Source: Candidatus Magasanikiibacteriota bacterium (GTDB lineage Bacteria > Patescibacteriota > Patescibacteriia > Magasanikbacterales > 2-02-FULL-50-9b). Taken from it: DNA of 42,163 bases. Position 1 is the first letter of the stretch; each line of letters opens with the position of its first letter. The notes below the pieces were generated by a model. That model saw only the letters and a program-made list of their open reading frames with translations. It was not told where the DNA came from and did not search any database. Positions 11,101-40,583 of the stretch are shown one piece after another. The stretch is from positions 1 through 42,163 of the forward strand of contig JAHFHU010000007.1 of the NCBI GenBank assembly GCA_023246755.1, read 5' to 3'. The translations under genes and the position numbers were made by a program.

Positions 11101-14100
11101 CGGGCGGACAAATTTCAAAAGAAGGTATCACGGTCGGCGACACGGTTTTGAAATTAACGGACGCGACCGCCGATCATCAGATCAGCCTCGTGCAAAATAA
11201 AACGTACAACGTTGTGTTTTGGGCAAAAGGGCAGGGGACGTTTAATTTGAAATTCGCGAGCGCGACATACGTGCCGTCAGAACTCATGCTCAACAAAGAT
11301 CCGCTCGTCGCGGGTCCGGAATGGCGTCGATATGAAGTTTCGTCGCCGCCAACGCCGTGGGCCGACACCGCGGCAAAATTAGTGTTCCAAAAAGTGGCAA
11401 GCGCGGGGCTGTATATCGAAAATATCAAAGTTAAGGAGCAAGTTGCGGTCGTGACGGTTCTGCGCAATTCATGGACGACGCCGTTATCGTGTGATCCGGT
11501 TTTGGGAGATGGAATCGCGGGGCCGGCGCTCAATTGTCAGGCGTATAAACCAAAAAATAACAGCGCACTTCCCGCCGCATACCTTACCGGCTTTACCAGC
11601 TTGTGTCGCGCGCCAGCAGCCGGATGTCAGAAATTTGTAAACACGCAAAACACGCCGGAAATTACGGAAAAAGAATTTAAATTTGGCACGGCGACGCGAA
11701 CAGTTCCGGGTGACGAGTTTACGTATGTCATCGCAAATGCAGGCGCATCGTGTCCGGCGGATGCGCAAGGGTGCAGCGCGCTCGGTCTTGTCGTGTCGGC
11801 AGGCAAAACCGAGACAGTGACGAAAATTAATAATCCGGGCAATTATCAAGCGACGGCATGCGAAGTGAAAGATGAGTGGTGCTCGACGTTTCCGGGTTCC
11901 GGCGGCACACAGCGCTATTTCAAATATCCGGATGCGTCAAAACAGTGCGAATATCGCGAAAATGTTGAGGTCAAAGGCGCGCCGCGCTCGGGCTGGTTCA
12001 AGTCGGGCAGCGACGAGCCGTGCTACGACAGTTTTGTTGCGGGCGGAAATTTTTACGGCATCTACAAAAACAAGGACAAAAATTTTACGGGCATGGCCGG
12101 CATGTGCGAGCCAGAATTTGGCCAATGCACCGAATTTATCGACCATGCAGACGTTTCGTTCGATCATCCGGCCGGCCGTTCGTACTTTTTCATGGACGAC
12201 ACACACGTCGATGCGTCTTCGTGTAACGGAAAAGTTAGTTTGAAGGAAGGGTGTGTTGCGCTCGATAACACGACACTCGGAAATAAAACAATCGCGACGC
12301 TCGCGACGTATTGCAAATCGGATGCGACGACGAATAGTTTATGTGCAGCGATTTTATCGGCGCAATATGCGAATGTTTCTGCGGGCGACCAGCAAAAAGA
12401 TGGTGCGCTTGTTACACCGGCCGTTGGCCCAACAAGTTTAACGCAAAATCCAGACACAATAAAAATGTGTAGTCGGGCGAACACAAACGGATTATTTGTT
12501 GCAACGGATTGTGACGCGCAATTGACGAAACTCAAGGATGCTTTGGGTGCTGATCCAGCAGCGCAAGCGGCTGCCGCTTCGTTGAAATGTGATGTGCAAA
12601 TAAATCAACAGCTGGTTGCGGCATTTGTGGCGTTGGCACACGCAGGTTGCGGAATTTTGCCCGACGCGAACACGATCGTAAAAGTTCGTCGCGATCGAAC
12701 ATGTGGCGAGTGGCTTGCCTGTCAGGGTGCGGTTTCGGTTTACGACAAAGCGACGCAGAAGTTTAAACAGGTTTGTACGGATTTGGGCGTGTGCAACAAG
12801 CTGTCGAGCGATTCGGGCGCGGTCGGGCAGTGCGCGAATTGGGTGACGCCGCAACAATTATCGAGCGAAGAAAATCTCCAGCGCTCGCTTCCGCTCACAA
12901 CCGCGCGCTACGTTTCCCGCAACGTCGGCTGGTACGGACGCGAATTCAGCGGCTATTCATTGTGGCACAAATTTCAACCAGACACGATCGGGCGATTCAG
13001 CGAAACGCCAAATGGAGAGCTGAAGATTGGGGTTGGGTTTGCAAATAAAAATGAATGTGTAAAAAATGGTCAAAACGTGATCGGTGACAAATGTACGGCT
13101 GCTGTATTTTTACCAGACGCTGTTCAAAAGTCAATCACAGCAGAATTCGACGATGTCAGCTTCGAAGGAAAATGTTTTGAGCAAAAATGTTGGTATCCGA
13201 TTGAGGGATTTGTACCAAAGAAAAATGCCAACGCGTTTGCGTACACGGAATCGTCGTGTCGCGGTTATCCGGAGCAGGATGCGCCATTTCCACAGAGCGT
13301 TGTGCAAGACGCAAACATGTTTGGTGTGGTCACGGACAAAGTGAGCGGGTTTGACAACGCGAATGTGTGCGAGCGATTTCGTCTTGAAAAGCCGACGCGT
13401 TCGGCGGAGTCATGGAGCAGCTTTGAAGTTTACAAGGGCATCAAAGGGGGCGACGCACCATCCGTCTTCGTGATCAAGAATAGTTCGTGTGATTGCTCGT
13501 ATAAAAAAGTTGAGTATGGTTCGATGAACGAAAAACACTACTTTGGATTGGGCGAGTATGCGGGCACAAACCCGGTTGGAAAATCAGTTCTGGCGTTATT
13601 TAACGTCAAAGGTGGTGGATTTCGTTGGTACGATGCAACTGTTACTGGTTTTCATGACGGTGTCTACGATGTTAAATATGGTTCTGATAATGACAATAAA
13701 ATAGACAATGGCGTCTCACCGCAGTATGTAGTCTTCAAGGATCAAACAGACGCCGCGCCACTTCAAATTGGAGACAAGGTGATTGCTGATTTTGAAGCAT
13801 ACAATGCAAATGCAGGTGATAAAAAGTGGTACTACGAAGGAGCGGTGACGGGAACGGGTGACAGCTATTCGGTCATGTTTGATGCGGCATTTCCGTTTCA
13901 GGTTAATGGCGCGCCCGCAGGGATACCGAAGAAACATTTTTTAAAGTTTCAAAAAGATCAATTATTCGCAAAAAAGACGCTCACGAGCGCAGTGACGGCG
14001 GGCGTTCCAAAGGGTTTATGTGGTGGCGGTTGGTTTGTGATCGGCTCTAAACTTCCATTCAACGGAGAAGCAGTTGTTGAATCAAAGAAAGGGTTGAGTT

Positions 14101-19447: not shown

Positions 19448-19506
19448 AGATGTACATACGATCGCATAAATTGTGTTATACTGTCAACGTAATTGTTCGC
19501 TTTCAC

Positions 19507-22470
19507 ATGCGAGGATTCTTGAATAAATTTAAAACGGTACATTTCGATGCAAAAAGTCGCGTGGCAACTCTGATTGCTCGGTGGCGTTTTTTGTTTTATT
19601 CCGCGCCGGTGCTCGCGTTGTTTTTTCCGAACATCGCGCATGCGGGTATCGGTGCTACGGCTGGAAAATTTGCGGGCAAGGCCGGCAGCGCTATCACGGG
19701 TGCTGTTGGTAACATCATCGGAACCGGTGTGGAAACCGCGGGTTCACTCATGGTTTGGCTGTTTGTCGTCTATCAGCTCTCAAAAATTTTCGCTGATTTA
19801 TTTAGTGGAATCTTTTTATTTCTCATCAATTTTCTCATCGGCGTCAGTCAATACAACAGTTTTCTTGGCTCTCAAATTGTTACGATCGGCTGGACGGTAA
19901 CGCGCGACATCGCAAACATGTTTTTGGTTGTCGCTCTTCTTGTCATCGCATTCGCCACCATTCTTAACATCAACAGCTATCAGGCAAGCGCGCTTCTCAA
20001 AGATTTTTTCTTTGCGGCAATTCTGGTGAACTTTAGCAAAATGATTTGCGGCGTGTTGATTGACGCGGCGCAAGTGGTGATGATGACGTTTGTGAGCGGG
20101 TATTCCGAAACGGCTGCGGGAAATTTTGTTAAACTTTTTAAAATTGATCAGTGGTTGCAGCTGGCGCTTGGAACTGCGAGCTCACAGTTGGCAGGGGCGG
20201 GAATTCAAACGGAGACTGCGGGGGCAGGTGCGATTAAGCTCGCAGCAGGGGCTGCGGCTGCAATCGGATCGTCCGCGGCGAATTTTTTTTCAGGCATCGC
20301 AACGAATATTTTTACCTCGATAATTGGATTCATCGGAATACTTGCCGTATTGTCACTCGACATCATTCTCGTTGTTCGTATCGTGACACTCTGGTTTTTG
20401 ATCGTCGCGTCGCCGATCGCGTTCGTTGCAAAAGTTTTGCCGGTTACAAAAGGTTTTTCAAGTCAGTGGTGGAGCGCGTTCAACAAACAGTTAATCGCAG
20501 GTCCACTCGTCGCGTTTATCGTTTGGATTTCACTCGCGAGCATTGCAGTGAGCGACAACGCGTTTGATCTGACGAAAGAGGCGCAGCAAGGAAACAAGCT
20601 TTTTGCGGAAAGTAATGCGGCAACGCAAGAACAGGGTCAGGTTGCGGCAACAAAAATTTCACAATGGGAAAATCTCGCGCTCTACTTTATTCCAATTGTG
20701 ATTTTTATCATGGGTGCCAAGTGGGCGGTTGGCGTTGCGGGAGGTGCGGCAAAATCGATCACCGGATTTGCAAGTGGAAAATTAAGCGGGCTAGCGCGCA
20801 GCGGCTTGTCTACGCTCAAAAATCAAGCTGTCGGTAAAGGCCAGTTCTCGGTGTTGACACAAGCAAAAAAGGGATTTAGCGGTCAAGGCGGATTCACTTC
20901 GGGGCTTTTGGGTGGAACAGTTGGTGCGCTTGGAACGGCAGGTATGGCGAATCTTGGAAATAGATTTGGCGCTCTTAAAGAAGGAACGAAATTGGGCGAT
21001 GGAATTCGGACAGCGGGTAGTGCGCTGATCGGCGGAGCCGAGAGTCGCGCGCGTACGCGTGAGTTGCAGAAAGATGTTAAAAATGCGGCTTCTCATCTTG
21101 GAGTTGGTGAGTTGGGTAAAAAACGCGTAGACGTTGTGAATGCAGGTGCTGAAGCGGATATGTATCGTAAGCGAGCGTCAAAAGAGCGGGCAGCTGATAT
21201 GGCTGCTGCGAGGAGTATTGCTGATCCAGCAACGCGTGAGAAAGCTGAAAACGAGGCACAATCAAATTATGCAACTTTGCAAAAGAAAGCTGATGAAGCG
21301 ATTCATCACGCAGAAGAAGCACAGAAAGACATATTTAAGGCCGATGGCCGGATTGATGATGGTGTGCTGTTGGCGGACATGAAGAAGAAGGTTGAAAACG
21401 GAACGGTCAATGAGGTAGAGCTTGCAGCGGCGAAAAAGATGATTGGTGAATCAGTTGATAAGAAGGTTACCGATGAAATTGCAAAGAAGCGTCAGGCGTG
21501 GGCGAAAGATCGCAAGGCGCATGTTGATGCGGGCGGTGATCCAGAAGATTTTCGCAAGTTTGATGAGGCTGCGGTACGGGGTGAAGCAGAAAATGAGTTT
21601 GGCATCAAGAAAAAGAACGAAGGCGATCCAACAAATCCAGGCATCGAAGATTTATATAAAAGTTACAAACAGGCTCCACCGCGTAATATTACGGATGATA
21701 AAAGCAAAACTCCGACCAAGGTTGCGGCTGAAGCGGCAAAAACTGCGACAACTGCCGCGGGTAGTATTTTGGCAGCCGCAAATGTTTCGGTTGCGAATGG
21801 ATATGCTCGCGACATGGCAACGCCGGGTAATGCGGATGTTGCCCGAAATAACTTGGCCGCAAGCACGGGCGCAGCGCTGCAAGCCGCAAAAACAGGTGGT
21901 GCTTCGGACGCTGATCTGAAAGCTGCAGTTGGTCGGGCGATTAACATGGTTCCGTCTGCGGGCCGCGCTGCGTTCACGAATGATCTTACATCTGCTGCAG
22001 GCAGTTCGGCGGTTGGCGCAATTGTTGCCGCTGTACGCAGCGAATTGAGTTCAATCAGTCCAGCGACTGCGACCAATGAAATTTTGGATCGGTTGGGCAA
22101 GCGCGTTGAAGGTAAGCCGAGTGAAACAACGCAAATTACACTTAAAGATTTGGGGTCACGAACAAGTTCAGATGGTCGACAAACACTTTCACCTGATGCA
22201 GTTGGTAAGTTGGCAGCGGCAATTGCTGCGGATCCGAAGTTTGTCGCGCGGTTGAGTCCGCAAGCGCTCATGCATCCGGACATACAGCGCACAGTTGGAC
22301 ACAGTGTTCAGTCATCGGGCGATGCGCTTGATATCATGATGGAGATTGGAAGTACGCTTGAGAAGAGTGTTGGAAAAACGCTCGCACGAAATCTTGCTAC
22401 GGCGATCAAGAATTATCATCCAGACCCCGTGATGAAAGCGCAGGCAGACTCATTGCCTGGGCTGATTTAA
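19507..22470 (+). CDS. TrbL/VirB6-like polytopic membrane protein with long hydrophilic C-terminal region
   Basis: N-terminal half has multiple TMs (WTVTRDIANMFLVVALLVIAFATILNINSYQ, GILAVLSLDIILVVRIVTLWFLIVASPIAFVAKVLP); about 540-aa Ala/Lys-rich C-terminus; synteny with PrgI/VirB4 homologs. Confidence 0.75.
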   Translation: MRGFLNKFKTVHFDAKSRVATLIARWRFLFYSAPVLALFFPNIAHAGIGATAGKFAGKAGSAITGAVGNIIGTGVETAGSLMVWLFVVYQLSKIFADLFSGIFLFLINFLIGVSQYNSFLGSQIVTIGWTVTRDIANMFLVVALLVIAFATILNINSYQASALLKDFFFAAILVNFSKMICGVLIDAAQVVMMTFVSGYSETAAGNFVKLFKIDQWLQLALGTASSQLAGAGIQTETAGAGAIKLAAGAAAAIGSSAANFFSGIATNIFTSIIGFIGILAVLSLDIILVVRIVTLWFLIVASPIAFVAKVLPVTKGFSSQWWSAFNKQLIAGPLVAFIVWISLASIAVSDNAFDLTKEAQQGNKLFAESNAATQEQGQVAATKISQWENLALYFIPIVIFIMGAKWAVGVAGGAAKSITGFASGKLSGLARSGLSTLKNQAVGKGQFSVLTQAKKGFSGQGGFTSGLLGGTVGALGTAGMANLGNRFGALKEGTKLGDGIRTAGSALIGGAESRARTRELQKDVKNAASHLGVGELGKKRVDVVNAGAEADMYRKRASKERAADMAAARSIADPATREKAENEAQSNYATLQKKADEAIHHAEEAQKDIFKADGRIDDGVLLADMKKKVENGTVNEVELAAAKKMIGESVDKKVTDEIAKKRQAWAKDRKAHVDAGGDPEDFRKFDEAAVRGEAENEFGIKKKNEGDPTNPGIEDLYKSYKQAPPRNITDDKSKTPTKVAAEAAKTATTAAGSILAAANVSVANGYARDMATPGNADVARNNLAASTGAALQAAKTGGASDADLKAAVGRAINMVPSAGRAAFTNDLTSAAGSSAVGAIVAAVRSELSSISPATATNEILDRLGKRVEGKPSETTQITLKDLGSRTSSDGRQTLSPDAVGKLAAAIAADPKFVARLSPQALMHPDIQRTVGHSVQSSGDALDIMMEIGSTLEKSVGKTLARNLATAIKNYHPDPVMKAQADSLPGLI

Positions 22471-22473
22471 TCT

Positions 22474-24321
22474 ATGAATACGGCTTTGAAATTTTCTTCA
22501 ATTCTCGATCTACCACGACTGCTGGTTGATTATTTATTGAGCAATCCGCTTGTTGCATTTAACAGTGGTCTGCTCGTGAATTATGGATTTGATGCGGACA
22601 AACGCGAGACGATTGTACGTATGCAGGGCGAGTTGGTTTTTCGTACGTTGCAGGTTGAGGATTTGCCGACCGCGATTCGTGAGCGGCTTGGTGTTGCGGA
22701 TGATCAAAAAATTCACAACATGGCACAGGATATTTTTAATGAATTTTGTGGGCCGATTCGATGGTATTTTCCGCAGTTGCGTGAGCGACTCGAAAAAATG
22801 GGTTTTGTGTTGAATGCGACGGATTTGTTTCCGATCCTGCAACCAAAAACGTCGCTTGCAGAAGCGATTGCGGCGGTGATGACGAAAATGGGTGATTTGC
22901 CGCGGTCGATAAAAGATCGGGTCGCTTCACTTGTCGAATTGACGTTACGTGCACAGGTGTACGATGAGGGTGGGTTGCGTGCGCAACTTTCGAAGTCAAT
23001 GAGCGACGGTGGTTTTGGATTGGGTGAAACAAATGTGCGCACGTTTATTTCGCAAATCAAGGAATATGTGACGTTGTATGCATTCAGCGATATACCGGAT
23101 GTAAACAGCGATGCGGCCGCGCCAGTTTTTTCAGAAGTAAAATTGACATCGTCGCCGCCGCCATCGACGATTGATCCGGCGACAATTCCACGTGACATGC
23201 TCGCGGCGCATGAAGCTTCTGAGGTGGATGATGCGGCTGCTGCGGCGCAAACGGTTGCATCATCAACGCCCTCGTCGCAACATCAGTCACTCGTTGAAGC
23301 GGTTCTCGCGGTTGATGCGCTGCATGATCGTTCCGAAGAAATTCAAAAACGGTGGCGCACGATTGTTGAGATGCGCGTTGGGGGCGCGCGCGATGCGACG
23401 AAGACGCGCGCGATGCTTGAAACACCGGAGGCGAACGGAGGTTTGGGTTTGAGCGCGGCAGAAGCGACGCGACTTGCAACGATGCTTGAACAAACAGCCG
23501 GAGGTTTTGAAAAGCGCGGCGAAGAGTTTTCAGTCATGGAAAAAATTGCGAGCGTGCAACAAGCGGCTGCGGGAATTATGGCAGGTCCAGAAGCGACAGC
23601 ACGCGAAACTCAGAAAAAATTGAACGAACGATTTATTTCGATGTTTGGTAAGGGCGCGGTTGAAGAGATGCGCCGCGAGACGCATCGAGAATTGCAAACT
23701 GCTGAAGCCGCACATCCGGGCGAAGAAGCGCGATCTCACATGGCACCGATCGCGATGGCTACCGCCGCCGCGACAGTTCAGCCAGCTGCAAAAACCGAGC
23801 TCCCGCCGCCGCCACCGTCGGCAGCACCACTGCAAGAGCCGAAATACATTCCACGCGTTCCGGAAAAATTGAAACAATTGATCGACACGGAAAGTTCGGC
23901 GTATTCTTTGAGCTCATTGAAACAAAAAAGTGGTCCGCCATCAGCGCCACCGCAGAAAAAAACAAGCGATATTCGTCCGAGCACGCGGTTAGTTGGTCCG
24001 ATGGACGAGCTGCAAACCATGTCACTCGTTGATTTTCGGCGTTTGTCGCCCGACGTGTCCGTGCGCATTCAGAAAATTCGGAGTAAAATTGAAGTAATCG
24101 GACAAGATGGTCCACACGAAAAAATTCGTGCGATCGCCGCGTTTGAGCAGAGTGATCCGGTGCGCGTGTATCGTGGGCTGCTCAAACGAAGTTTGATTGA
24201 AGGGCGCACGATCGACGAGCTTTCGGGCGAACTCAAAAAATCAGGTGGCGAATATCTTGACGCAGACGAGATCGCGGCGCTCCGACAATTTTTGTCACAA
24301 ATTCGTTATTCGAGCTTGTAA
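22474..24321 (+). CDS. Hypothetical protein of T4SS-like operon with internal repeats
   Basis: Long ORF between VirB6-like and PrgI-like genes; Pro-rich linkers (PPPPPSAAP). Confidence 0.75.
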   Translation: MNTALKFSSILDLPRLLVDYLLSNPLVAFNSGLLVNYGFDADKRETIVRMQGELVFRTLQVEDLPTAIRERLGVADDQKIHNMAQDIFNEFCGPIRWYFPQLRERLEKMGFVLNATDLFPILQPKTSLAEAIAAVMTKMGDLPRSIKDRVASLVELTLRAQVYDEGGLRAQLSKSMSDGGFGLGETNVRTFISQIKEYVTLYAFSDIPDVNSDAAAPVFSEVKLTSSPPPSTIDPATIPRDMLAAHEASEVDDAAAAAQTVASSTPSSQHQSLVEAVLAVDALHDRSEEIQKRWRTIVEMRVGGARDATKTRAMLETPEANGGLGLSAAEATRLATMLEQTAGGFEKRGEEFSVMEKIASVQQAAAGIMAGPEATARETQKKLNERFISMFGKGAVEEMRRETHRELQTAEAAHPGEEARSHMAPIAMATAAATVQPAAKTELPPPPPSAAPLQEPKYIPRVPEKLKQLIDTESSAYSLSSLKQKSGPPSAPPQKKTSDIRPSTRLVGPMDELQTMSLVDFRRLSPDVSVRIQKIRSKIEVIGQDGPHEKIRAIAAFEQSDPVRVYRGLLKRSLIEGRTIDELSGELKKSGGEYLDADEIAALRQFLSQIRYSSL

Positions 24322-24323
24322 TT

Positions 24324-24770
24324 ATGTCCCAACAATTTGTTGTTCCACAATTCATCGACGCGGAACCAAAATTATTGGGACCGATCACGCCGCGACAATT
24401 CGCAATTTTATTTGTGACCATCATGCTCGGCGCTGTTCTTAAGTTGCTCGTGCCCTTTGGTTTTTTTATCGCGGGCTGCATTCCGCTTGCGGGCGTGGGG
24501 CTGACGGTCGCATTTGTAAAAATCAACGGACAAGCATTCCACTATTTTTTGTTGAACGTCATTCAAACAATGCGCAAAGCGAAGGTTCGTGTGTGGCAAA
24601 AAAAATTGACGGATGATTATCTTCGCCAGTTTGTTCATCGCGAAGAAAAAAAAGTAGAAGTGAAAATTGCGCATAAAGCATTTATCCAATCAAGTCGGCT
24701 CAATGAACTTTCGCTCATCGTCAACACCGGCGGCGCATATCGACCCGAAGCCGACGATGATAACGCATAA
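24324..24770 (+). CDS. PrgI-family T4SS membrane protein
   Basis: FVVPQFIDAEPKLLGPITPRQFAILFVTIMLGAVLKLLVPFGFFIAGCIPLAGVGLTVAFVKINGQAFHYFLLN; two TMs; directly upstream of the VirB4-like genes. Confidence 0.75.
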   Translation: MSQQFVVPQFIDAEPKLLGPITPRQFAILFVTIMLGAVLKLLVPFGFFIAGCIPLAGVGLTVAFVKINGQAFHYFLLNVIQTMRKAKVRVWQKKLTDDYLRQFVHREEKKVEVKIAHKAFIQSSRLNELSLIVNTGGAYRPEADDDNA

Positions 24771-25494: not shown

Positions 25495-27507
25495 ATGGCA
25501 TTTCAACCAATTTCACCACCAACCGCGCGGCCCATCGGATCGCCGTCATCGTCGTCAAAAAAGCCGAGCAAACAAGATGAGCTCAAGCGCGCCGCCGAAG
25601 AAGAGCGACAGGCACTTGAATCAGAACGCATTTATCGCAGCGGTGTCATCAACATCCGCGACATCATCGCGCCGGCCGCATTTAAAGTTGAGTCTGCGTA
25701 TGTTTTGATTGGCGAAGTTTATGCACGCACATTGTTTGTCGTAACGTATCCGCGCTACATCGGCGTTGGTTGGTTTTCTCCGATCATTAATTTGCCGCTC
25801 ACGCTCGACATCGCCATGTTTTTTTATCCGGTTCCAAGCGAAATTATTTTGAAGCAACTCAAAGAGCGTGTGGGTTTCATGGAAGCGCAAATTGTTTCTG
25901 ATGCGGAAAAAGGCGCGCCACGTGATCCGATTTCAGAAACTGCACTCCGCGATATCGAAGCGTTGCGCGATTCACTTTCGCAAGGCACGGAAAAGTTTTT
26001 TCAATTTGCGTTGTACGTGACGATTTACACAAAAACAAAAGAAGAGCTCGACAAAACGACGGCGGATATCGAAGGCATGTTTGGGTCAAAATTAATTTAC
26101 ACCAAAAAAGTTTTGTATCAGGCCGAACAAGGTTTTAACTCAACCATTCCACTCGGCAACGATGAACTCATGATCACGGCGAACATGAATTCGTCGCCAA
26201 TCGCTGCGTCATTTCCATTTATGTCCGCGGAACTCACGAGTGACAATGGAATTTTGTATGGTATCAATCGCCACAACAATAGTTTGATTTTGTTTGATCG
26301 ATTTTCCATGCAAAACGCGAATTCAGTTGTGTTCGCAACATCGGGTGCGGGAAAATCATACGCGGTCAAACTTGAAATTCTTCGTTTGCTGATGGTGGGT
26401 GTGAGTGTGATCGTTATCGATCCGGAGTTTGAATACAAACAATTATCTGACGCGGTTGGCGGAACGTTCATCAATATTTCGCTGGCGTCGGAAGCAAAAG
26501 TTAATCCGTTCGATTTGCCGCGTCCCGTTGGTGAACAAATTTCAACGGAAGATATAATTCGGAGTGCGGTGATCACGCTTAAAGGATTGTTTCGCATCAT
26601 GTTTGGCACGATCTCAAATGAGGAAGATTCGGTTTTGGACCGTGCGCTTCTTGAAACATTTGCGAAAAAAGATATCACACCGGATTCGGATTTGACGAAA
26701 GTTGAAACGCCGGTGATGGCTGATTTTCAGTCCGTGCTTGAAGGCATGACGGGTGCGGAAAATATGCTCGTCAAGGTTAAAAAATTTACCGAAGGAACTT
26801 TTGCGGGGTTGCTTAACCAACCGACGAATGTTGATATGAATGGGCAGCTTGTCGTGTATTGCGTGCGTGATCTTGAAGATGAGTTGCGTCCAACTGCGAT
26901 TTATACTATCGTCAATTACATTTGGAATGTCGTTCGTTCGTCGAGAAAAAAACGTGCGTTGATTATTGATGAGGCGTGGTGGCTGATGCAGCACGAAGAT
27001 TCCGCGCGATTTATTTTTGCGCTCGTTAAGCGCGCACGTAAATATTTTCTTGGTGTGACAACAATTACGCAAGATGTGAATGACTTTTTGGGTTCACAAT
27101 ATGGACAAGCGATTGTGACGAATTCATCGATTCAGTTGCTGCTTAAACAATCGCCGGCATCCGTTAATAATTTGGTTAAGACATTCATGTTGACGGAAGG
27201 TGAAAAGTTTTTGCTGCTTGAGAGTGCGGTTGGTGAGGGGATTTTCTTTGCGGGGCAAAAGCATGCGGCAATCAAAATCGTTGCGTCGTATAACGAAGAT
27301 CAGATTGTAACAACGAACCCGCAACAGCTGCTCAAACTTGAAGAGGAGCGACGAAAAATGCGTGAGGAGCAAGAAAAACTTGATACCGAGCGAAATGAAA
27401 AAGATGGTGGAGCACAGGCGGCGCTTGACAGCGTTGTTCCGTTCGAGTTTAATCCAGATACGGAGGCTGATGCGGCTGCTGCCGTCGCTCCGGGAGGATC
27501 TGCATAA
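25495..27507 (+). CDS. VirB4/TraC-family T4SS ATPase
   Basis: Walker A ATSGAGKSYAVKLEILRL; IDPEFEYKQL; Walker B KRALIIDEAWWLMQ. Confidence 0.9.
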   Translation: MAFQPISPPTARPIGSPSSSSKKPSKQDELKRAAEEERQALESERIYRSGVINIRDIIAPAAFKVESAYVLIGEVYARTLFVVTYPRYIGVGWFSPIINLPLTLDIAMFFYPVPSEIILKQLKERVGFMEAQIVSDAEKGAPRDPISETALRDIEALRDSLSQGTEKFFQFALYVTIYTKTKEELDKTTADIEGMFGSKLIYTKKVLYQAEQGFNSTIPLGNDELMITANMNSSPIAASFPFMSAELTSDNGILYGINRHNNSLILFDRFSMQNANSVVFATSGAGKSYAVKLEILRLLMVGVSVIVIDPEFEYKQLSDAVGGTFINISLASEAKVNPFDLPRPVGEQISTEDIIRSAVITLKGLFRIMFGTISNEEDSVLDRALLETFAKKDITPDSDLTKVETPVMADFQSVLEGMTGAENMLVKVKKFTEGTFAGLLNQPTNVDMNGQLVVYCVRDLEDELRPTAIYTIVNYIWNVVRSSRKKRALIIDEAWWLMQHEDSARFIFALVKRARKYFLGVTTITQDVNDFLGSQYGQAIVTNSSIQLLLKQSPASVNNLVKTFMLTEGEKFLLLESAVGEGIFFAGQKHAAIKIVASYNEDQIVTTNPQQLLKLEEERRKMREEQEKLDTERNEKDGGAQAALDSVVPFEFNPDTEADAAAAVAPGGSA

Positions 27508-27518
27508 TTTTTATTTCT

Positions 27519-28118
27519 ATGGAAGAACAAACAAAACGCACAACGATTCTGGTTTTGGCTGCGCTCGGAGTAGTGATTGTGATTTTCGTTGGAATTTTTT
27601 ATTGGCTCAATAAACAAAAATCAGCGAGCTCGGTCGTGGTGACACCCGCGCAACCTGCTGCACAGATTGTTGCTGAGCGCGCAGAAGCGTTGCCCGAGAC
27701 GACAAAAACCGAAGTTGATCATTCGCGGGACCAGCAGCCACCCGACTCAAAAGATGCGCAACTGCGACGGTTTTGCGGCGATTTTATTGCGCGTTTCGGC
27801 ACGTATTCAACGGATGGTGGCGGATTAAATTTACAGCAAGTTTTGCCACTCATGACCGGAGATCTTAAAGCGTGGGCCGAAGGGCAGGCGGCGGTCAGCG
27901 CGCGCGTCGAGAAATTTTCTGGCGTTGTTACGAAAGCTTTGGCCGTTAAGATAATTTCGCAAACCGCGACCGATGCGATTGTCAAAGTTGGAACACAGCG
28001 AATTTATACAGAAGGCGATGGTCTGCACACTAAACTTGAGGACGCGACGATGAAGCTTGTGCATGATGCGACGGGCTGGCGCGTGAGCGGTGTGACGTGG
28101 GAAGTTCGGCCGAATTAA
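27519..28118 (+). CDS. VirB8/NTF2-like single-TM protein (putative T4SS component)
   Basis: N-terminal TM, then a 130-aa alpha+beta domain (FCGDFIARFGTYSTDGGGLNLQQVLPLMTGDLKAWAEG...); position in the operon. Confidence 0.5.
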   Translation: MEEQTKRTTILVLAALGVVIVIFVGIFYWLNKQKSASSVVVTPAQPAAQIVAERAEALPETTKTEVDHSRDQQPPDSKDAQLRRFCGDFIARFGTYSTDGGGLNLQQVLPLMTGDLKAWAEGQAAVSARVEKFSGVVTKALAVKIISQTATDAIVKVGTQRIYTEGDGLHTKLEDATMKLVHDATGWRVSGVTWEVRPN

Positions 28119-32754: not shown

Positions 32755-34104
32755 TTATTTTTCAATTTTCTCAAGCACGGATTTAATATCTGAAATCGCA
32801 ACGACTTTCAAATTTTTCATCGCGGGTGCGTTTTTGACCGCAGGCACCAGCGCGAATTTAAAACCTTGCCGCTCCGCTTCTTTTAAGCGTTTGTCGGAAT
32901 TTTTTACGCGCCGAATTTCGCCACTCAACCCAACTTCGCCAAAGGCAAGAACTGTTTGTGGAATTGTTTTTTCAGCGATCGACGATGCAATCGCCATGCA
33001 GATTGCGAGATCAGCCGCGGGTTCGTTAGCCGAAATACCGCCAACCACATTTACAAACACGTCGTATTGATCAACGGGTAAACCCATGCGCCGACCCAAA
33101 ACAGCGAGTAAAATTTGCAGCCGCGCGTTGTCGACACCTTGTGCGCGGCGCTGAGGGAAACCGAACGTTGTTTTGGTGGTGAGCGCTTGAATTTCAACGA
33201 GCAACGGACGGTTGCCATCCATCAAACAAGTCACGACCGTTCCGGGAACAGGGAGTGAGCGTTCCTCGAGTAACAAACCGGATGGATCCGCAACCGGCTG
33301 TAAACCATTTTCGAGCATTTCTAAAACCGCAACTTCGTCGGTCGGGCCGAATCGATTTTTGAAACAACGCAAAAACCGCAAACGATCCGTGCGTTCACCT
33401 TCAAGCGACAACACCACGTCGACCAAATGTTCCAAAGTTTTCGGCCCCGCAACGGATCCGTCTTTGGTTACATGGCCGATTAAAATCACGGGCACGCCCG
33501 TTTGATTGGCGAGTTCCATCAATGCATTTGCAATCGCACGCACCTGCGCAACGCCGCCCGGTTCGCCCGCGACGTCGGGGTGGCGCATTGTTTGCACCGA
33601 GTCAATGATGGCAAGGCTCGGATGCTGCGCGTGAATCGCGTTGTGTACCACTTCATAATCTGTCGTGCCAACAAAAGCAACATTAGATTTTTTTGCGGTA
33701 TCGAGTCGCTGCAATCGAAGACCGACTTGCTCAGCAGATTCTTCGCCAGAAATGTATAAAACGCCGCGCGCTGCAACTGCGATTTGCATCACGATCGTCG
33801 ATTTGCCGATGCCCGGCTCGCCGGCGAGGAGGAGCAGCGATCCCGCGACGATGCCGCCACCCAAAATTTCGTTGACGTCGGCCATACCGACATCGAGACG
33901 CGGCGCGATTTTTGCACCACCGCCTGAATCAAGTCCGAGAGCATGCAACGCGATGGGTTCTGTTGTTGCTGAATTATTGCCCGTTGCACGCCGCCCCTTT
34001 TTTGGTTCGTCGGGTGCCTCAACAAGTGTGCTCCACGCACCACATTTTAAACATCGACCCGACCATTTTTGCGAAGTCGTCTCACACGAACTGCATCGAA
34101 ACAT
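32755..34104 (-). CDS. radA: DNA repair protein RadA
   Basis: N-terminal CxxC..CxxC zinc finger, GEPGIGKSTIVMQIA Walker A, FKNRFGPTDEVAVLEM (KNRFG motif). Confidence 0.96.
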   Translation of the reverse strand: MFRCSSCETTSQKWSGRCLKCGAWSTLVEAPDEPKKGRRATGNNSATTEPIALHALGLDSGGGAKIAPRLDVGMADVNEILGGGIVAGSLLLLAGEPGIGKSTIVMQIAVAARGVLYISGEESAEQVGLRLQRLDTAKKSNVAFVGTTDYEVVHNAIHAQHPSLAIIDSVQTMRHPDVAGEPGGVAQVRAIANALMELANQTGVPVILIGHVTKDGSVAGPKTLEHLVDVVLSLEGERTDRLRFLRCFKNRFGPTDEVAVLEMLENGLQPVADPSGLLLEERSLPVPGTVVTCLMDGNRPLLVEIQALTTKTTFGFPQRRAQGVDNARLQILLAVLGRRMGLPVDQYDVFVNVVGGISANEPAADLAICMAIASSIAEKTIPQTVLAFGEVGLSGEIRRVKNSDKRLKEAERQGFKFALVPAVKNAPAMKNLKVVAISDIKSVLEKIEK

Positions 34105-34107
34105 ACA

Positions 34108-36342
34108 TCATTGTTTTTCAATCGTATACACGTTACCCATCTTTGCGTGGGTGATTTCTGTTGCGGGCAATTTTACCATACCATTGGTGCTTCCCACATC
34201 AAAAACGTCAAGCATCGATCCGTCAGCGCTGATTCCCGTAAAAATCATGAAGTGCGATTTGTATGTTTTTTCAGATCCGTCTTTTTTGAGTCCGACACAG
34301 CTATGGCACGAAAAAATTACGGGTTTTCCCTCTCGGATAATTTTGCTGAGCGAAGCGACGTTATCTCCCGGCAAGCTTTTACACGATATGCCGGGAAATT
34401 TTTTTCCAATATTATTACACAAAATTTGTGCATTCGTTCCTGCGCAACTTTCGTGTGCGCCAACACTCGCGCTCGCAATCGCAACCTCTTTTGGAGTCAC
34501 TTGTACTCCGTTGTACGCGAGAACATTTGCGAGTGCGGTGATGCCGCATCCACTTTTACAAACAGTGTCTGTTGAGAGTGATCCGTCAGGTACATTATGT
34601 TTGCTCGTACATTGCATGTCACCGGATTTATTTTGATAGGGTGCGTCGCGCCATTGCGAATCACATTGAACATATTTTGGCAATTGTCCCGGAACAATAT
34701 TAACCGCAGCGCCCGGAACGGTGATGCCGTCGCTGCCATCCGAATTTCCATCTTCCGGTGCCCAAAACGCTTCTTGTTTCGGTGCGAGAATATGCAACGC
34801 TTTAAGTTTGGGGAGATCTGGATTGATTACATATAAAACTGTGTATGCAGAAAAAAGTAGAAACAAACCGAGCGCTGAACTATAAACCGAAGTTTTTGCT
34901 GTTTCGATTGCTTTTGTATTTCCAAAGGAGGTCATCCAGCGAATGCCCGCATACATTAAAACAACGATCGCGATTATGACACCAAGACCAATTGCGTATT
35001 TGTAAACAGCCTCGATATATGTCGCAAGATAGGGAATAGAGAAGAATTTTGTTCCACCCGGACCATCTTGCGCAGATATTTCTTGAATAAAATTTAGATT
35101 GGGGATGTCAATTTGAAGTTTCGGTGCGTATTGTTTATACGTTTGTGCGGCGATTTCGGCTTTTATGTAGTCTGGTTTTTCGGCTGCTTGTGTGAGGCCT
35201 GAACTGAGCGCTTCGCCATTTCCAACAAAATTGATGCACACAGCTTTGGTTGGCTGATCAACATATTGAACACAAATGGATTCTTTACCACTCGGATCGC
35301 ATGCTTTTGTGCCGGGGAGCGCGCAGGGACATGGTTTGCCTCCGGCGCAAATTTCTTTGGGCAATTGGGACATGTCGGTAAAAATTGTTTGTTGCGAAAA
35401 GCATTGATTTTTTTTGGTGACAGGATTCGCGAGACAAAATTTTGCACCTGCCTGCGCTTTACAGTCGCTGTCACTTTTACATATTTGAGTTGAGGGTGCG
35501 TTAGCCCCACCGACCATGTAAATTGGATCAATACATCGTTTCGCGATTGCGCCGATACTCGTTAGCGTGTTCATGCATACACCTGGCGCACCATTTATCG
35601 TGCAGGGTCCGGCAACGGCAGGGCAGGCGTCAGTTGAAACAAGTGCTTTGTTGTAACACACATATGAGCTCAGTCCGCTGGGTTCATATGCATTTTGCAC
35701 ACACGTTTTATCGCTCGAACAATTTCCGTTGGTTCCACAACTTGCGGCGTTTGGGTCAAGGACGCTCGCCGGGAGTTTTTCAACGTCGATGCAGCGTTTT
35801 GCCGAGACGAATTCTCCTGTTGTGTTCGCGAGGTCATTTTTAAGCACATCATATCGGGTAACGCGCACGCATTGTCGGGTGCCAGTGCCAACGGTGCAGT
35901 CGGCATTTGTTGTACACCCATCGGCTGAACCTGACTTGCTCGGCAAGTCGCTGATGTTTAAACATGCGGGGCCAAATTTTTTTGAATCCGTCAGTGAATT
36001 AACGGTGGCGCAATTTTCATTTCCGCCTTTTTTTATCGCGCAATTACCTGCAGATCCACACGGAGAAAAATTGGTATGCGGAAGACATGCTTTTTCAAGT
36101 ATCGGCGAGCTGCCGATTGCGATACCGAATTTTTGAACCTCTGCACAATGAAGATTATCCACACATTTGTAACTCGTCGGATTTGCATTTCCAATTAAAC
36201 CAAATGATATGGCATCTGCAGCGCCGCTTAATGAAGAACCGAGTGATCCTCCGACGCCACAATCTTGAAATATGCCCGCGGCGCTCACCGCGGTTGGCGC
36301 AGCGAATAAAATTTGGAAAATGATCAAAAAAAATGTAATCAT
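34108..36342 (-). CDS. Cys-rich secreted/membrane protein with VirB2/pilin-like TM core and C39-like cysteine peptidase domain
   Basis: Signal peptide MITFFLIIFQILFAAPTAVSA; TM core YIEAVYKYAIGLGVIIAIVVLMYAGIRWMTSFGN...VLYVINPDLPKLKALHILAPKQE; C-term KSGCGITALANVLAYNG...KSHFMIFTGI. Confidence 0.75.
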   Translation of the reverse strand: MITFFLIIFQILFAAPTAVSAAGIFQDCGVGGSLGSSLSGAADAISFGLIGNANPTSYKCVDNLHCAEVQKFGIAIGSSPILEKACLPHTNFSPCGSAGNCAIKKGGNENCATVNSLTDSKKFGPACLNISDLPSKSGSADGCTTNADCTVGTGTRQCVRVTRYDVLKNDLANTTGEFVSAKRCIDVEKLPASVLDPNAASCGTNGNCSSDKTCVQNAYEPSGLSSYVCYNKALVSTDACPAVAGPCTINGAPGVCMNTLTSIGAIAKRCIDPIYMVGGANAPSTQICKSDSDCKAQAGAKFCLANPVTKKNQCFSQQTIFTDMSQLPKEICAGGKPCPCALPGTKACDPSGKESICVQYVDQPTKAVCINFVGNGEALSSGLTQAAEKPDYIKAEIAAQTYKQYAPKLQIDIPNLNFIQEISAQDGPGGTKFFSIPYLATYIEAVYKYAIGLGVIIAIVVLMYAGIRWMTSFGNTKAIETAKTSVYSSALGLFLLFSAYTVLYVINPDLPKLKALHILAPKQEAFWAPEDGNSDGSDGITVPGAAVNIVPGQLPKYVQCDSQWRDAPYQNKSGDMQCTSKHNVPDGSLSTDTVCKSGCGITALANVLAYNGVQVTPKEVAIASASVGAHESCAGTNAQILCNNIGKKFPGISCKSLPGDNVASLSKIIREGKPVIFSCHSCVGLKKDGSEKTYKSHFMIFTGISADGSMLDVFDVGSTNGMVKLPATEITHAKMGNVYTIEKQ

Positions 36343-36350
36343 AGTTGTGT

Positions 36351-38639
36351 TTATGGTTGCACATTGCGCACACGATACCACCATCTGCCGGTTTTGCTTG
36401 AGCCGGGCATACCTTTGGTCATGTTTGCTTTGCTAAAATCCATTACCATTGCATTGAGTCCGGGTAAGTAACCATTCTGACCTTTCCAACGACCGGTGGA
36501 TTGGACAATTTGATTGTGTTTTCCATTTAAATCGCCAACAAATACGAGCACGTGTCCTTGTATTTCTTTGTCACTATCACCCAGCGGTAGATAGATCTTT
36601 GAATCGCTTGTTTGCCACCCAAAGATATCACCGGGCTGTAATTTGTATCCATCAACAATTGCGTTTTCATAGTCAATAGGATTAGCGCGTGTATTTTTTA
36701 ATGGCGATCCAGTTATTTCAGCAGAACCACCAAACGCATTAATTCCTGCGCAACCCATAATATAGGACGCGAGTCCCGAGCAGTCAAAACACATGAATCC
36801 CGATGGACATGAGGTGAGAATGTCCTTGTAACTTGGATTTTCAGCGATGAGCGCTTTATTTGCATCACTTCCGATGGAGTATTTAATATTTTGACTCTGA
36901 ATTTTTCCTCCCCAACGATAGACAACCTTGCCTTGAAGACTGCTGACTATTTTTGATATCGCGTCGCGGCCTCCTGATTTTGGACAATAAACATCCCCTG
37001 ATGGTTTATAGTCGGCCGGTAGAGCTCCGCCTGCAGCCGGTCCGCCATTTTTTGCTGCGTTTTCATCGTCACCACCAAAATCTTTTTCTATAAAAACTTC
37101 TTGTTTTGGAGCCAAGATATTGATTGCTTGTAGTTTTGGCAAATCAGGATTGATGACGTATAAAATGGTGAACACACCAAAAAGCAATGCGAGACCAAAT
37201 ACGGCGTTGCCGATCATATCACGTGCGCCGCCGATTGATTTTGCATTTCCAAACGAGGTCATCCAGCGAAATCCGGCGAACATGATAATGACAACGGCGA
37301 TGAGCACGCCGAGGCCAAGCGCGTATTTGTAAACCGCTTGGATGTATGTTGCAAGATAGGGAATTGAGAATTTTTTTAATCCATTCGCGCTGTCTTCGGC
37401 CGTGATGCTTCCGTCAAACGTAAGCCCCGGAATATCAACTTGCAGTTTTGGCGCGTACGCTTTGTATGTTTGTGCGGCAACATCAGGTTTAATATTTGCG
37501 GTTACGGTCGCGCCGCCCGTTCCGAGGTTGGTGTTATTGATGCATACGAGCGTCGTTTTTGTTCCATCTCCGATGTATGTTGTACAGATCGAATTTTCTC
37601 CGGCGCAGTTCGGGATCTCTGCGTGCGGGCATTCACACGATTGCGCTCCGGGGACACATTTTTTTGGATCCGTGAGGATCGATTTCATGTCATTAAAAAT
37701 CGCGGCTTGATTAAAACACTGATTTTTTTTTGTAACTGGACTCAAGATGCAAAAAGGATTTTGTGGATTTTTTATAGCGCAGTCCGCGTCATTTTTGCAG
37801 ACCTCGACGGACGGTGAAAATTTTCCGCCCGCAATTTTTGTCGTGTCAACACAGCGATAGCCGAATTTAAAATTTTTTGGCCCCTTGTAGCCTTTGATGG
37901 CGTACATGCACAAACTATCCGTTCCACTTTCTGAACAGGATATACCAACTTTAACTGAGGCGAGTTCGTTTTTGCCTGCAACGGGACATTTTGCTGACTC
38001 ACTGATTGCAGAATTTTTGACGCAACTAAACCCGAGTTTTTGCGGTTCATACGAATTCAGAATGCATGTTTCGTCGGCGGTGCAGGCAGCATTTGTTTGG
38101 CAGGTGCCGTCTTCGTCAATGACACTCGGAGGGAGCGCGTCTTTGTAGATACACCGTTTACGAGGCCACACATCGGTATTGTTGACGAGCACGAATACGC
38201 ACTGTTGATAGATTCCACACGTTGAACAATCCATGTCGACCGAGGTTTTTTCTTGTGGAACGAGATTTTTTGACAAACAAGCCATTCCAAAAAGCGATGG
38301 ATTTTTTACCGAGCTGACCACGACACATTGATCTGTGCCACCAGAATTTTCGCACACACCATCATCAAATTTTGAGCAGTTTGGGTAGGCGAGTCGCGGA
38401 AGACACATGTTGTCGGCGGGTGAACTCAAAATTTTGTAGGTCGCGCTTTTGAAATTTTTTATGTCCCAACAGTCAGCTTCGCCGGGACACGCGATCGTGA
38501 GCGCACCTGATTTACACGGACCCGTTGGCTGGCCGGGTGCGGGCGCGGCGTGAACAAAAGAGGGTTGTAAAAAAAACAACAAGAGTAGGATGGAAAAAGT
38601 TGTGATTTTTTTCTTTTGAAAAAAAGAAAATTTAAACAT
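36351..38639 (-). CDS. Paralog: Cys-rich protein with VirB2/pilin-like TM core and NlpC/P60-like domain
   Basis: TM core YIQAVYKYALGLGVLIAVVIIMFAGFRWMTSFGNAKS...LYVINPDLPKLQAINILAPKQE; C-term FDCSGLASYIMG...QGHVLVFVGD. Confidence 0.78.
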   Translation of the reverse strand: MFKFSFFQKKKITTFSILLLLFFLQPSFVHAAPAPGQPTGPCKSGALTIACPGEADCWDIKNFKSATYKILSSPADNMCLPRLAYPNCSKFDDGVCENSGGTDQCVVVSSVKNPSLFGMACLSKNLVPQEKTSVDMDCSTCGIYQQCVFVLVNNTDVWPRKRCIYKDALPPSVIDEDGTCQTNAACTADETCILNSYEPQKLGFSCVKNSAISESAKCPVAGKNELASVKVGISCSESGTDSLCMYAIKGYKGPKNFKFGYRCVDTTKIAGGKFSPSVEVCKNDADCAIKNPQNPFCILSPVTKKNQCFNQAAIFNDMKSILTDPKKCVPGAQSCECPHAEIPNCAGENSICTTYIGDGTKTTLVCINNTNLGTGGATVTANIKPDVAAQTYKAYAPKLQVDIPGLTFDGSITAEDSANGLKKFSIPYLATYIQAVYKYALGLGVLIAVVIIMFAGFRWMTSFGNAKSIGGARDMIGNAVFGLALLFGVFTILYVINPDLPKLQAINILAPKQEVFIEKDFGGDDENAAKNGGPAAGGALPADYKPSGDVYCPKSGGRDAISKIVSSLQGKVVYRWGGKIQSQNIKYSIGSDANKALIAENPSYKDILTSCPSGFMCFDCSGLASYIMGCAGINAFGGSAEITGSPLKNTRANPIDYENAIVDGYKLQPGDIFGWQTSDSKIYLPLGDSDKEIQGHVLVFVGDLNGKHNQIVQSTGRWKGQNGYLPGLNAMVMDFSKANMTKGMPGSSKTGRWWYRVRNVQP

Positions 38640-38641
38640 AC

Positions 38642-39319
38642 TTATTTTTTCGCTTCGATTCGCGCAAGTTCACTACGAATTGTTCCTGCAAATTCATAAT
38701 AGGGAAGTATACCTTCGATGCGCTGTGTTCCAAAGAAAAAAGTTGGCGTTGCGGTAACGTCGAGCGCGCGCGCTTCCTGTTCGTTTGCCTCGAGAGCTGA
38801 AATAATTCCATCGGAACGCATACAATTTTCGATCGTCGCGAGATCGAGTCCTGTTTCGGTAATTATTTTTTCGATCACCGGAAGTTTGACGTGTATTTCT
38901 TGAATGTGGGTGAAAGCGACGTGTTCAAAGTCCCAAAAATGTCCGGCAGCCGCCGCACATCGCCCGGCCTTGTGTAACTCAAAGCTGTCAGGAAAAATAT
39001 TTTTATGCGCGGGAAAATCTTTCCAAACAAATCGAATTTTTCCCGCGAGTTGTGGATCTTTGAGCAGCGCATCAATTTCGGGTGAGGCATTTGCGCAACT
39101 ATCACAACCAAAGTCAGAAAAATAAATAATGGAAAGTGGTGCGTCGGGTGATCCGCGTTGCGGGTCGGTAATTTTGATCGTCGGTTCGGTTATTTTTTTT
39201 TCGCGCGTGATCGGCGCGGGCGCGTTCGATGGAATTTTGATTTTAAGAATCAGCCCGATACAAATGAGCAGTGTGAGCGATCCGATAAATCCGATAATCC
39301 ACCGTCGCTGATCCAGCAT
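38642..39319 (-). CDS. DsbA-family thioredoxin-fold protein, membrane-anchored
   Basis: N-terminal TM; SDFGCDSCANASPEIDALL (CxxC), ATPTFFFG cis-Pro motif. Confidence 0.9.
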   Translation of the reverse strand: MLDQRRWIIGFIGSLTLLICIGLILKIKIPSNAPAPITREKKITEPTIKITDPQRGSPDAPLSIIYFSDFGCDSCANASPEIDALLKDPQLAGKIRFVWKDFPAHKNIFPDSFELHKAGRCAAAAGHFWDFEHVAFTHIQEIHVKLPVIEKIITETGLDLATIENCMRSDGIISALEANEQEARALDVTATPTFFFGTQRIEGILPYYEFAGTIRSELARIEAKK

Positions 39320-39320
39320 A

Positions 39321-40583
39321 TTACTTAAGTTGCATCTTGATGATTTGTCCGGTCGCGTGTTCTTTCATAAAAAGATTATTTCCATTTTTTGAAATGGAGA
39401 GCGAGTCAATCGTGTGTTCGCCGTCTGGTTTTCCAACGAGCGTTTGTAAACCACTGCGGATGTTGATTTTATAGATCGCATCATTCGTGTCAGTTGCAAG
39501 TTGTGGGGCAAAACCAATTCCGGGAATCAAACGATCAGGGTCAGGCACCGCGCATAAAACCTCATCATTGTTCATGAACGAGCACTTGCTTGCCCACGTG
39601 TTGACGTTGAGAAAATTTTTCGCTGCACCAACCGATGCGTCGTCACCACCATCGACCCACAATGATGGCTCAAGATTCGACGCGCCATTGTGTGCACTAT
39701 AGAGCACCCGATCGCCTTGCGGAGACCACGTCGGCTGAAAACCAAGACCTTCAACGGTCATCTGGCGAAAATTCTCACCATTTTTTCCGATGAGTAAAAC
39801 GCCTTGTCGATCTGCGCCGCCGCCGAGCCCCGGCGCTGTGCGAGAAAAGGCAATCACTTGATTATTCGGCGACCAGCTGACGATAACTTTGTTGCCATTT
39901 TCGCCGAGCGGCTCAATCGGCACCGCGTTTGTTCCATCGATATTTGACGTGAATAAAAAGCGCAAACTTGGATCAGGACTTTGTGTCATGCCCGCAACCT
40001 GTTTTGAGTCGGGAGAAAAATCGATGTCGGTCCAATGCGAAGGAATCGTGTACTGTTTTTTTGCGCTGAAATCATAAATAGCTTTCGTTCCATCCGGAAA
40101 ATCCATCACGGCAACATCTTTATTCGGTGCCCACTTTACATTTTGTACCGCGGGAAACGCATCAGTTGACATGAGAATTTTGTTGCCATCCTCATCAGCG
40201 CGATAAAATTTTCCATCGAGCCTGTCGTAATATTGGATCGTTCCACCATCGGGAGATAGCGTGAGTGCAGCCGTTGGATTGCTGATGACCGTCGTGACCG
40301 CAACATTGATTTGTCCGCCTGCGCTCGGCTGAACTTGGGCCGCTGTTTTGAGCGCGGGAGTTGGAAGTGCATTTTGACGATTTGCATTTGCATCATCTTC
40401 TGAACGATCGCGCGCGCCTGACGTCGTGAGTTGGTTTGCGGCAACGGACTGCTCGCTGTTCGTTTGAGCAGTTGAAGTTGTTTCTGAGGGAGCAAAATAA
40501 ACTTTGTAAACGATGTATCCAAAAAGCGTGGCGCAGAGGAGAATTCCGATTGCCGCGAGCATTTTCTTTTTTTCAAGTTCCAT
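39321..40583 (-). CDS. TolB/PD40-like beta-propeller protein with N-terminal TM
   Basis: LTLSPDGGTIQYYD, VKWAPNKDVAVMDF, IDFSPDSKQVAGM, VSWSPNNQVIAFSR, PTWSPQGDRVLYS repeats. Confidence 0.75.
   Translation of the reverse strand: MELEKKKMLAAIGILLCATLFGYIVYKVYFAPSETTSTAQTNSEQSVAANQLTTSGARDRSEDDANANRQNALPTPALKTAAQVQPSAGGQINVAVTTVISNPTAALTLSPDGGTIQYYDRLDGKFYRADEDGNKILMSTDAFPAVQNVKWAPNKDVAVMDFPDGTKAIYDFSAKKQYTIPSHWTDIDFSPDSKQVAGMTQSPDPSLRFLFTSNIDGTNAVPIEPLGENGNKVIVSWSPNNQVIAFSRTAPGLGGGADRQGVLLIGKNGENFRQMTVEGLGFQPTWSPQGDRVLYSAHNGASNLEPSLWVDGGDDASVGAAKNFLNVNTWASKCSFMNNDEVLCAVPDPDRLIPGIGFAPQLATDTNDAIYKINIRSGLQTLVGKPDGEHTIDSLSISKNGNNLFMKEHATGQIIKMQLK

Follow-up and report, generated by a model that had tools for sequence, protein, structure and literature searches.

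Patescibacteria carry arrays of VirB2-like pilins of the type IV secretion system (T4SS), and these are essential in Southlakia epibionticum (PMC12102498, PMC10633639). The T4SS itself proved essential in the only Patescibacterial species in which this was tested (PMC10633639, PMC11665869). In a phylum-wide survey, VirB2-like pilins were detected almost everywhere, while VirB1 was without homologue in most VirB2-bearing Patescibacteria; its conclusion was that VirB1 may be dispensable for the pilus (PMC12102498). In Gram-positive bacteria, VirB1 proteins carry one or several murein-cutting domains of the SLT, CHAP, LytM and muramidase types (PMC12857230).

In this study, we analyzed two tandem genes, P0001 and P0002, located in a stretch of 42,163 nucleotides (hereafter named the window; contig JAHFHU010000007.1) of a Candidatus Magasanikiibacteriota bacterium. 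Each product places a two-helix core of the T4SS pilin type between a Cys-rich ectodomain and a C-terminal enzyme domain, C39-like in P0001 and NlpC/P60-like in P0002. Across homologues, this core is carried with almost every class of peptidoglycan hydrolase. We consider it probable that both are membrane-inserted pilin-type proteins bearing an extracellular peptidoglycan-cutting enzyme, docked at the T4SS as VirB1-equivalents and modularly swapped; the docking, the enzymatic activity and the target wall are what we infer in this proposal. No description of a pilin-core/hydrolase fusion was found in the full-text literature, most subscription journals, preprints and supplements lying outside the search. 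The component families are known, while their combination, their exchangeability and the DsbA operon appear new.

The window genome (0.92 Mb, 98.8% complete) has Candidatus Magasanikbacteria as its nearest named relatives and, more widely, Falkowbacteria, Uhrbacteria, Kerfeldbacteria and Parcubacteria. Full proteins were taken from 60 regions of the same order and 40 regions of the class or phylum, and the family comprises about 70 homologues from the order and class. The “full core” set used for the order-level counts contains 53 proteins, and its definition takes in the conserved IPxLxF segment that precedes helix 1.

Two tandem proteins with a common pilin core

P0001 and P0002 have the following domain layout:

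34108..36384, minus strand: P0001, pilin-core/C39 peptidase fusion of 758 amino acids (aa) (open reading frame, ORF; Pfam C39_2 and T4SS_pilin above cut-off)
36277..36342, minus strand: predicted signal peptide of P0001, residues 15-36 (MITFFLIIFQILFAAPTAVSAAG), from the hydrophobic stretch 15-33 of the sequence
35230..36165, minus strand: Cys-rich ectodomain of P0001, about residues 74-385 (41% identity to P0002; AlphaFold)
34789..35127, minus strand: pilin core of P0001 with the IPxLxF segment, residues 420-532 (core hidden Markov model, HMM; Pfam PF18895 at 454-520; AlphaFold hairpin)
34219..34620, minus strand: Peptidase_C39-like domain of P0001, residues 589-722 (Pfam E 6.4e-10; triad; Foldseek)
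36351..38639, minus strand: P0002, pilin-core/NlpC-P60 fusion of 762 aa (ORF)
38547..38639, minus strand: predicted signal peptide of P0002, residues 1-31, from the hydrophobic stretch 12-30
37530..38516, minus strand: Cys-rich ectodomain of P0002, about residues 42-370 (homology to P0001; AlphaFold)
37116..37454, minus strand: pilin core of P0002, residues 396-508 (Pfam; core HMM; AlphaFold)
36495..36923, minus strand: NlpC/P60-like domain of P0002, residues 573-715, with Cys620 and His696 (sub-cut-off Pfam match and motif order)

As the initial annotation had proposed, the two are tandem paralogs with a common Cys-rich part and a core of two transmembrane (TM) helices: residues 74-549 of P0001 and 51-525 of P0002 are 41% identical (E 2e-103), and pairwise alignment detected no real similarity between the C-termini outside this region. 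An assembly or frameshift artefact was ruled out, as both ORFs are intact and the same operon occurs in dozens of genomes. The true start of P0001 is more likely Met15 (position 36342), because a clean signal peptide comes right after it, and the apparent 34-nt overlap with P0002 may therefore not exist. In the AlphaFold models, the ectodomain of P0001 is beta-rich, much of it with a predicted local distance difference test score (pLDDT) of about 70-88 and some weaker stretches, and that of P0002 has a pLDDT mostly of 60-88 from residue 81 onward.

The cores of P0001 and P0002 are 63% identical and consist of two adjacent TM helices joined by a short polar loop (residues 452-485/490-520 and 427-461/466-496, respectively), modelled as hairpins by AlphaFold. 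The T4SS_pilin family (PF18895) matched residues 454-520 of P0001 (E 7.5e-7, 29.6 bits for a cut-off of 26.6) and, under that cut-off, residues 430-496 of P0002 (E 0.0016, 18.9 bits). When a core profile made from 49 relatives was compared with the seven small pilins of the window genome, it gave a probability of 98% (E 1.8e-13). The Pfam match and the profile comparison uphold the VirB2/TrbC-like core first read from the sequence and speak against a core unrelated to T4SS pilins. All relatives (57/57) have the core, 52 of them together with virB4, and the core contains invariant Pro and Gly positions. With the core as query, the PDB yielded no meaningful sequence match. A type IV (PilA-like) pilin identity was rejected, as it gave no match and T4SS_pilin fits. 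With 758 and 762 aa, P0001 and P0002 are not small mature subunits, and because large domains lie on both sides of the core, we do not file them as structural pilins.

The window genome contains 14 T4SS_pilin matches at E<=1, including the array of seven small PF18895 pilins, two of them with Cys-rich tails (L016 6764-10927, G000:C17). Two more pilin-core proteins of this genome (L015 7880-15605, G000:C23) have an N-terminal core, after which the first continues for 494 residues and the second for more than 1800; this pair represents giant pilin-anchored surface proteins. One hydrolase-free C-terminus matched the Ig-like family Big_5, and this match is probably that of the first protein.

Exchangeable C-terminal enzymes

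The C-terminus of P0001 matches Peptidase_C39_2 (PF13529) above the cut-off over residues 589-722 and holds the intact triad Cys613/His711/Asp729 (Asp729 just past the edge of the Pfam domain; invariant in the six-member C39 cluster, 6/6). It was modelled confidently by AlphaFold, and its Foldseek matches are papain/C39-fold cysteine peptidases, in agreement with the C39-like end that the initial annotation gave it. In P0002, the motif order DCSGL...GDIFGW...GHVLVFVG is canonical, with Cys620, His696 and then His708/Asn709, and it is mostly because of this layout that we assigned the domain to NlpC/P60. The C39 triad of P0001 and the NlpC Cys/His of P0002 argue against C-termini devoid of catalytic residues. 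Sequence searches of the PDB with either C-terminus brought no meaningful match, and no homologue of the NlpC/P60 domain of P0002 was detected when 94 further genomes from its order and class were searched. A phage origin of both enzyme domains was rejected after tblastn gave no match in 50,697 phage records. Chance likeness of the C-termini was likewise rejected, given the catalytic residues, the Pfam E-values and a control family in which the pilin core lacks the IPxL segment and hydrolases were found in 0/23 C-termini.

A survey of core homologues by C-terminal type, as initially suggested, showed that the 53 order-level proteins end mostly in peptidoglycan hydrolases: SLT in 12, Amidase_2 in 11, VanY in 9 (overlapping M15 in 7 and M15_4 in 4) and C39_2 in 6, with single matches to glucosaminidase, M23, GH18 and NlpC. 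By clustering, 47/53 fall into hydrolase classes; a motif marks two others as CHAP-like, and the remainder are mostly M15- or lysozyme-like. Class-level relatives show the same enzyme types, with further members of each. Each cluster keeps its active-site residues without exception (SLT Glu, 13/13; amidase His, 11/11; VanY HxxGxxxD...WH, 10/10). In an unbiased search of 57 genomes, these fusions accounted for 12/17 Amidase_2 and 12/31 SLT domains, the places of the domains and fusions being compared by eye; the window genome contains neither domain at E<=1e-4.

Further domain types were observed in the family. A GDSL/SGNH hydrolase-like part lies N- or C-terminal of the core in members among L057, L059, L061, L070, L074 and L154, an alpha/beta-hydrolase-like C-terminus was recognized by motif in L139 and L191, and the N-terminus of one member holds a metallophosphatase domain. 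Next to virB4, locus L191 (11139-16396, G376) carries five tandem pilin-core proteins whose C-termini are of the C39, lysozyme-like, M15-like and esterase-like types.

At the sequence level, domain replacement at one locus between close relatives is demonstrated, in line with the duplication and domain replacement initially proposed. Over the N-terminus and core, P0002 shares 60% identity with L048_4604, its orthologue in the same genus, and the two end in NlpC/P60 and VanY, respectively. The core of P0001 is sister to that of L048_2418 (71% identical; support of 95% in the SH-like approximate likelihood ratio test, SH-aLRT), and the two proteins end in C39 and Amidase_2. In the L055 pair, encoded in one genome, the cores are 94% identical, with C39 in one protein and SLT in the other. 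On the core tree, 38 changes of enzyme type were counted vs 41.4 +/- 2.1 with shuffled labels (22/200 shuffles as low), so that the core alone hardly predicts the enzyme. Among tandem loci, 14/15 carry more than one enzyme class, which is not clearly above chance given the class frequencies, and 11/15 combine a glycan-cutter and a peptide-cutter (permutation P 0.036), the window pair being among the four exceptions.

A constant N-terminal and core module with exchangeable C-terminal enzymes, together with the T4SS linkage, would also suit polymorphic effectors directed at a host, in which the core would serve for trafficking and the hydrolase would be a toxin, delivered to the host cell or displayed there. 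In addition, the C-terminus of a different pilin-core protein (L099 2414-3874), which belongs to the hydrolase-free family, is a Hint/intein-like module, and Hint domains are typical of polymorphic toxins. We nevertheless regard this explanation as improbable: no immunity-gene pattern lies beside the fusions, where the next gene is RadA or another fusion; the 53 order-level C-termini contain no non-wall toxin domains except one GH18 and two GDSL matches; and the core is transmembrane, unlike most delivered toxins.

The replacement pattern also bears on a purely housekeeping role, in which the fusions are VirB1-equivalents that cut only the producer's own wall for T4SS assembly, and the enzyme type varies since any local murein cut suffices. 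Own-wall cutting is what VirB1 does in known T4SSs (PMC12857230), the proteins are tethered to the membrane of the producer, and the operon is conserved. However, the chemistry of the own wall should not vary inside a genus, whereas orthologues from the same genus end in NlpC, VanY, C39, Amidase_2, SLT or CHAP-like domains. The N-terminal ectodomains, which are large and of Cys-rich, GDSL or metallophosphatase type, also point to a site of action that is remote or on a partner. A role limited to housekeeping thus appears rather unlikely, and we return to the preferred reading of swapped, T4SS-docked wall-cutting enzymes.

Operon, probable disulfides and linkage to the T4SS

The neighboring genes that bear on this reading are:

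38642..39319, minus strand: DsbA/thioredoxin_4-like oxidoreductase with an N-terminal TM, encoded immediately upstream of P0002 (Pfam E 1.9e-21 and 1e-9)
39321..40583, minus strand: TolB-like beta-propeller with an N-terminal TM, operon member (PD40 repeat; synteny)
32755..34104, minus strand: RadA, downstream gene (sequence; synteny)
19450..22470, plus strand: putative VirB6-like multi-TM protein of the T4SS (8 hydrophobic segments, next to PrgI/VirB4; no Pfam match)
24324..24770, plus strand: PrgI/VirB3-like protein of the T4SS (Pfam PF12666)
25495..27507, plus strand: VirB4/TraG P-loop ATPase of the T4SS (Pfam PF19044, E 1.3e-25; in 52/57 relatives)
27519..28118, plus strand: single-TM protein in a VirB8-like position, of presumed function (directly after VirB4 also in class relatives)

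The gene order TolB-like, DsbA-like, one to four fusions and RadA is kept throughout the order and class. A DsbA-like gene lies directly upstream at 36/40 order-level fusion loci, and at 21/21 of the DsbA-type loci fetched for the hydrolase-free family. The window genome has three DsbA-like genes in total, two of which adjoin a core gene. A second conserved unit was also observed (type-B loci, e.g., L017 5902-9314), made of a DsbA-like gene and a Cys-rich pilin-core protein; about one is present per genome in the same order, and its C-terminal cysteine counts are even in 21 cases and odd in 1.

Among the fusions, every thiol enzyme (17/17) has an odd number of C-terminal cysteines, whereas 49/51 of the others have an even number (Fisher P 4e-14). 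For seven of the 17 thiol enzymes, the label comes from a motif recognized by eye; with these motif-only labels removed, the counts were 10/10 odd vs 2/51 odd (P 7e-10). N-terminal cysteine parity alone was not significant (28/43 even among proteins with any Cys, P 0.066). The C-terminal pattern is that expected from full disulfide pairing plus one free catalytic thiol. From this parity and the adjacent DsbA, we place the enzyme outside, the C-terminal domains being probably disulfide-bonded and extracytoplasmic. VirB2 likewise has a topology with both termini outside and a short inner loop.

The T4SS block of the window (19.4-28.1 kb) comprises the VirB6-like protein, PrgI, a TraC N-terminal-like protein, VirB4 and the protein in the VirB8 position. 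It is followed by ComF and RecG, then, on the opposite strand, by RadA, P0001, P0002, and the DsbA-like and TolB-like genes. VirB4 lies 6.6 kb from P0001 (7.3 kb from core to virB4). The presence of comF, recG and radA near T4SS genes was described in the class ABY1 (PMC12102498). Among the 54 class genomes having virB4, a long core gene is found within 3 kb of it in 15 and within 15 kb in 30, for a random-placement expectation of 2.4% and 11.5% per genome, respectively; the linkage P values are optimistic because the genomes are related. The core gene nearest virB4 is often not itself a hydrolase fusion in the class genomes. The most direct cases of linkage are L188, L190 and L200, in which VirB4 is contiguous with the TolB-DsbA-core::hydrolase unit.

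In several order-level genomes, the locus is 25-93 kb from virB4 or on a separate contig, and PF18895 is a short two-helix module. The core could then be a mere membrane anchor unrelated to the T4SS, holding surface hydrolases that scavenge wall fragments or remodel the wall. The invariant Pro/Gly positions, the strong class-level linkage to virB4 and the presence of the core in all 57 relatives, 52 with virB4, argue against it, and among the explanations considered we give this one the least credit.

Other genes were noted in the window, all on the plus strand: a 2905-aa ORF with a signal-peptide-like start and no Pfam match, just upstream of the T4SS block (8184-16901), which is a candidate giant surface protein; a 615-aa protein with no Pfam match between the VirB6-like protein and PrgI (22474-24321); and a HepT-like ribonuclease (5768-6115).

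Proposed function and comparison with known systems

In the mechanism that we favor, a signal peptide would export each protein and the two-helix core would span the membrane with a short cytoplasmic loop inside, so that the Cys-rich ectodomain and the C-terminal enzyme would both lie outside. The neighboring DsbA-like protein would form the disulfides, the catalytic thiol alone staying free. The core would dock the enzyme at the linked T4SS (VirB4, PrgI and VirB6-like protein on the same contig), either at the base of the channel or on a pilus, and local murein cutting would let the channel or pilus through, a VirB1 job done by a VirB2-VirB1-type fusion. Tandem copies would usually combine different specificities, often a glycan-cutter and a peptide-cutter, and recombination at the same locus between close relatives would replace the enzyme module. 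The SLT domain of classical VirB1 is present in other family members and absent from the window pair; since neither the pair nor its genome has one at E<=1e-4, we describe the proteins as working like VirB1 and do not file them as VirB1.

Several observations weigh against this reading. C39 domains classically cleave leader peptides, and we infer murein as a substrate because the enzyme types are interchangeable within the family. The NlpC/P60-like end initially ascribed to P0002 stands as to its motif and Cys620/His696 and falls short in Pfam, where the NLPC_P60 match (PF00877) is below the cut-off with the whole protein (E 0.035) and with the C-terminus alone (E 0.0035); the AlphaFold model of this C-terminus has a pLDDT <50 and is unusable, and Foldseek with the P0002 model gave no matches. 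The window pair associates two peptidases, not a glycan- and a peptide-cutter. Linkage to the T4SS is at a distance in the window, with RecG, RadA and ComF in between, and often at tens of kb within the order. The charge of the loop is on average more positive than that of its flanks, weakly (+1.6 vs 0.0 and +0.8). The core tree is based on an alignment of about 112 columns, and its resolution is poor.

Fast replacement between close relatives favors a variable target and hence a host, and we lean towards the host cell wall being at least part of the target; a relaxed choice of enzyme would yield the same replacement pattern. More tentatively, a T4SS pilus with interchangeable wall-cutting enzymes at its tip or base could possibly serve Patescibacteria of this class as an exchangeable “wall drill” against the peptidoglycan of particular host species, the set being re-tooled, as hosts change, through domain swaps at a single locus.

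For this class, a wall hydrolase that is fused to a pilin-type core and encoded in an operon having a DsbA of its own offers a direct alternative to a VirB1-free pilus. It may explain how parasite-like ultra-small bacteria open a cell wall, their own or that of the host. The pattern reaches beyond the window pair, with dozens of homologues, a conserved DsbA operon, a virB4 link and replaced domains that are almost all peptidoglycan hydrolases. Enzyme swapping between close relatives makes host specificity accessible to experiment, and expression and assay of the soluble enzyme domains require no culture of the organism.

Among described systems, type IV pilins of modular build, e.g., PilB of Streptococcus sanguinis, likewise join a pilin module to an added functional domain (PMC8179133); their pilin fold and machine are unrelated, and the added module there is an adhesin, not an enzyme. 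Polymorphic toxin systems also have a conserved N-terminal part and C-terminal enzymes swapped at one locus (PMC3482391), whereas here nearly all enzymes are wall hydrolases, immunity genes are absent and the pilin core is transmembrane. The VirB2-like pilins of Patescibacteria (PF18895; PMC12102498, PMC10633639) share the two-helix core, the tandem paralogues and the virB4 linkage, but they are short, whereas in the fusions the core lies mid-protein between ectodomain and enzyme, with the IPxLxF segment before TM1. The VirB1-like hydrolases of Gram-positive conjugation systems (PrgK of pCF10, TraG of pIP501 and Orf14 of Tn916; PMC12857230) are likewise membrane-anchored, extracellular and T4SS-linked. 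Unlike them, the proteins described here use a pilin core as anchor and carry one enzyme each, the activities being split between tandem paralogues and drawn from a far wider, exchangeable repertoire.

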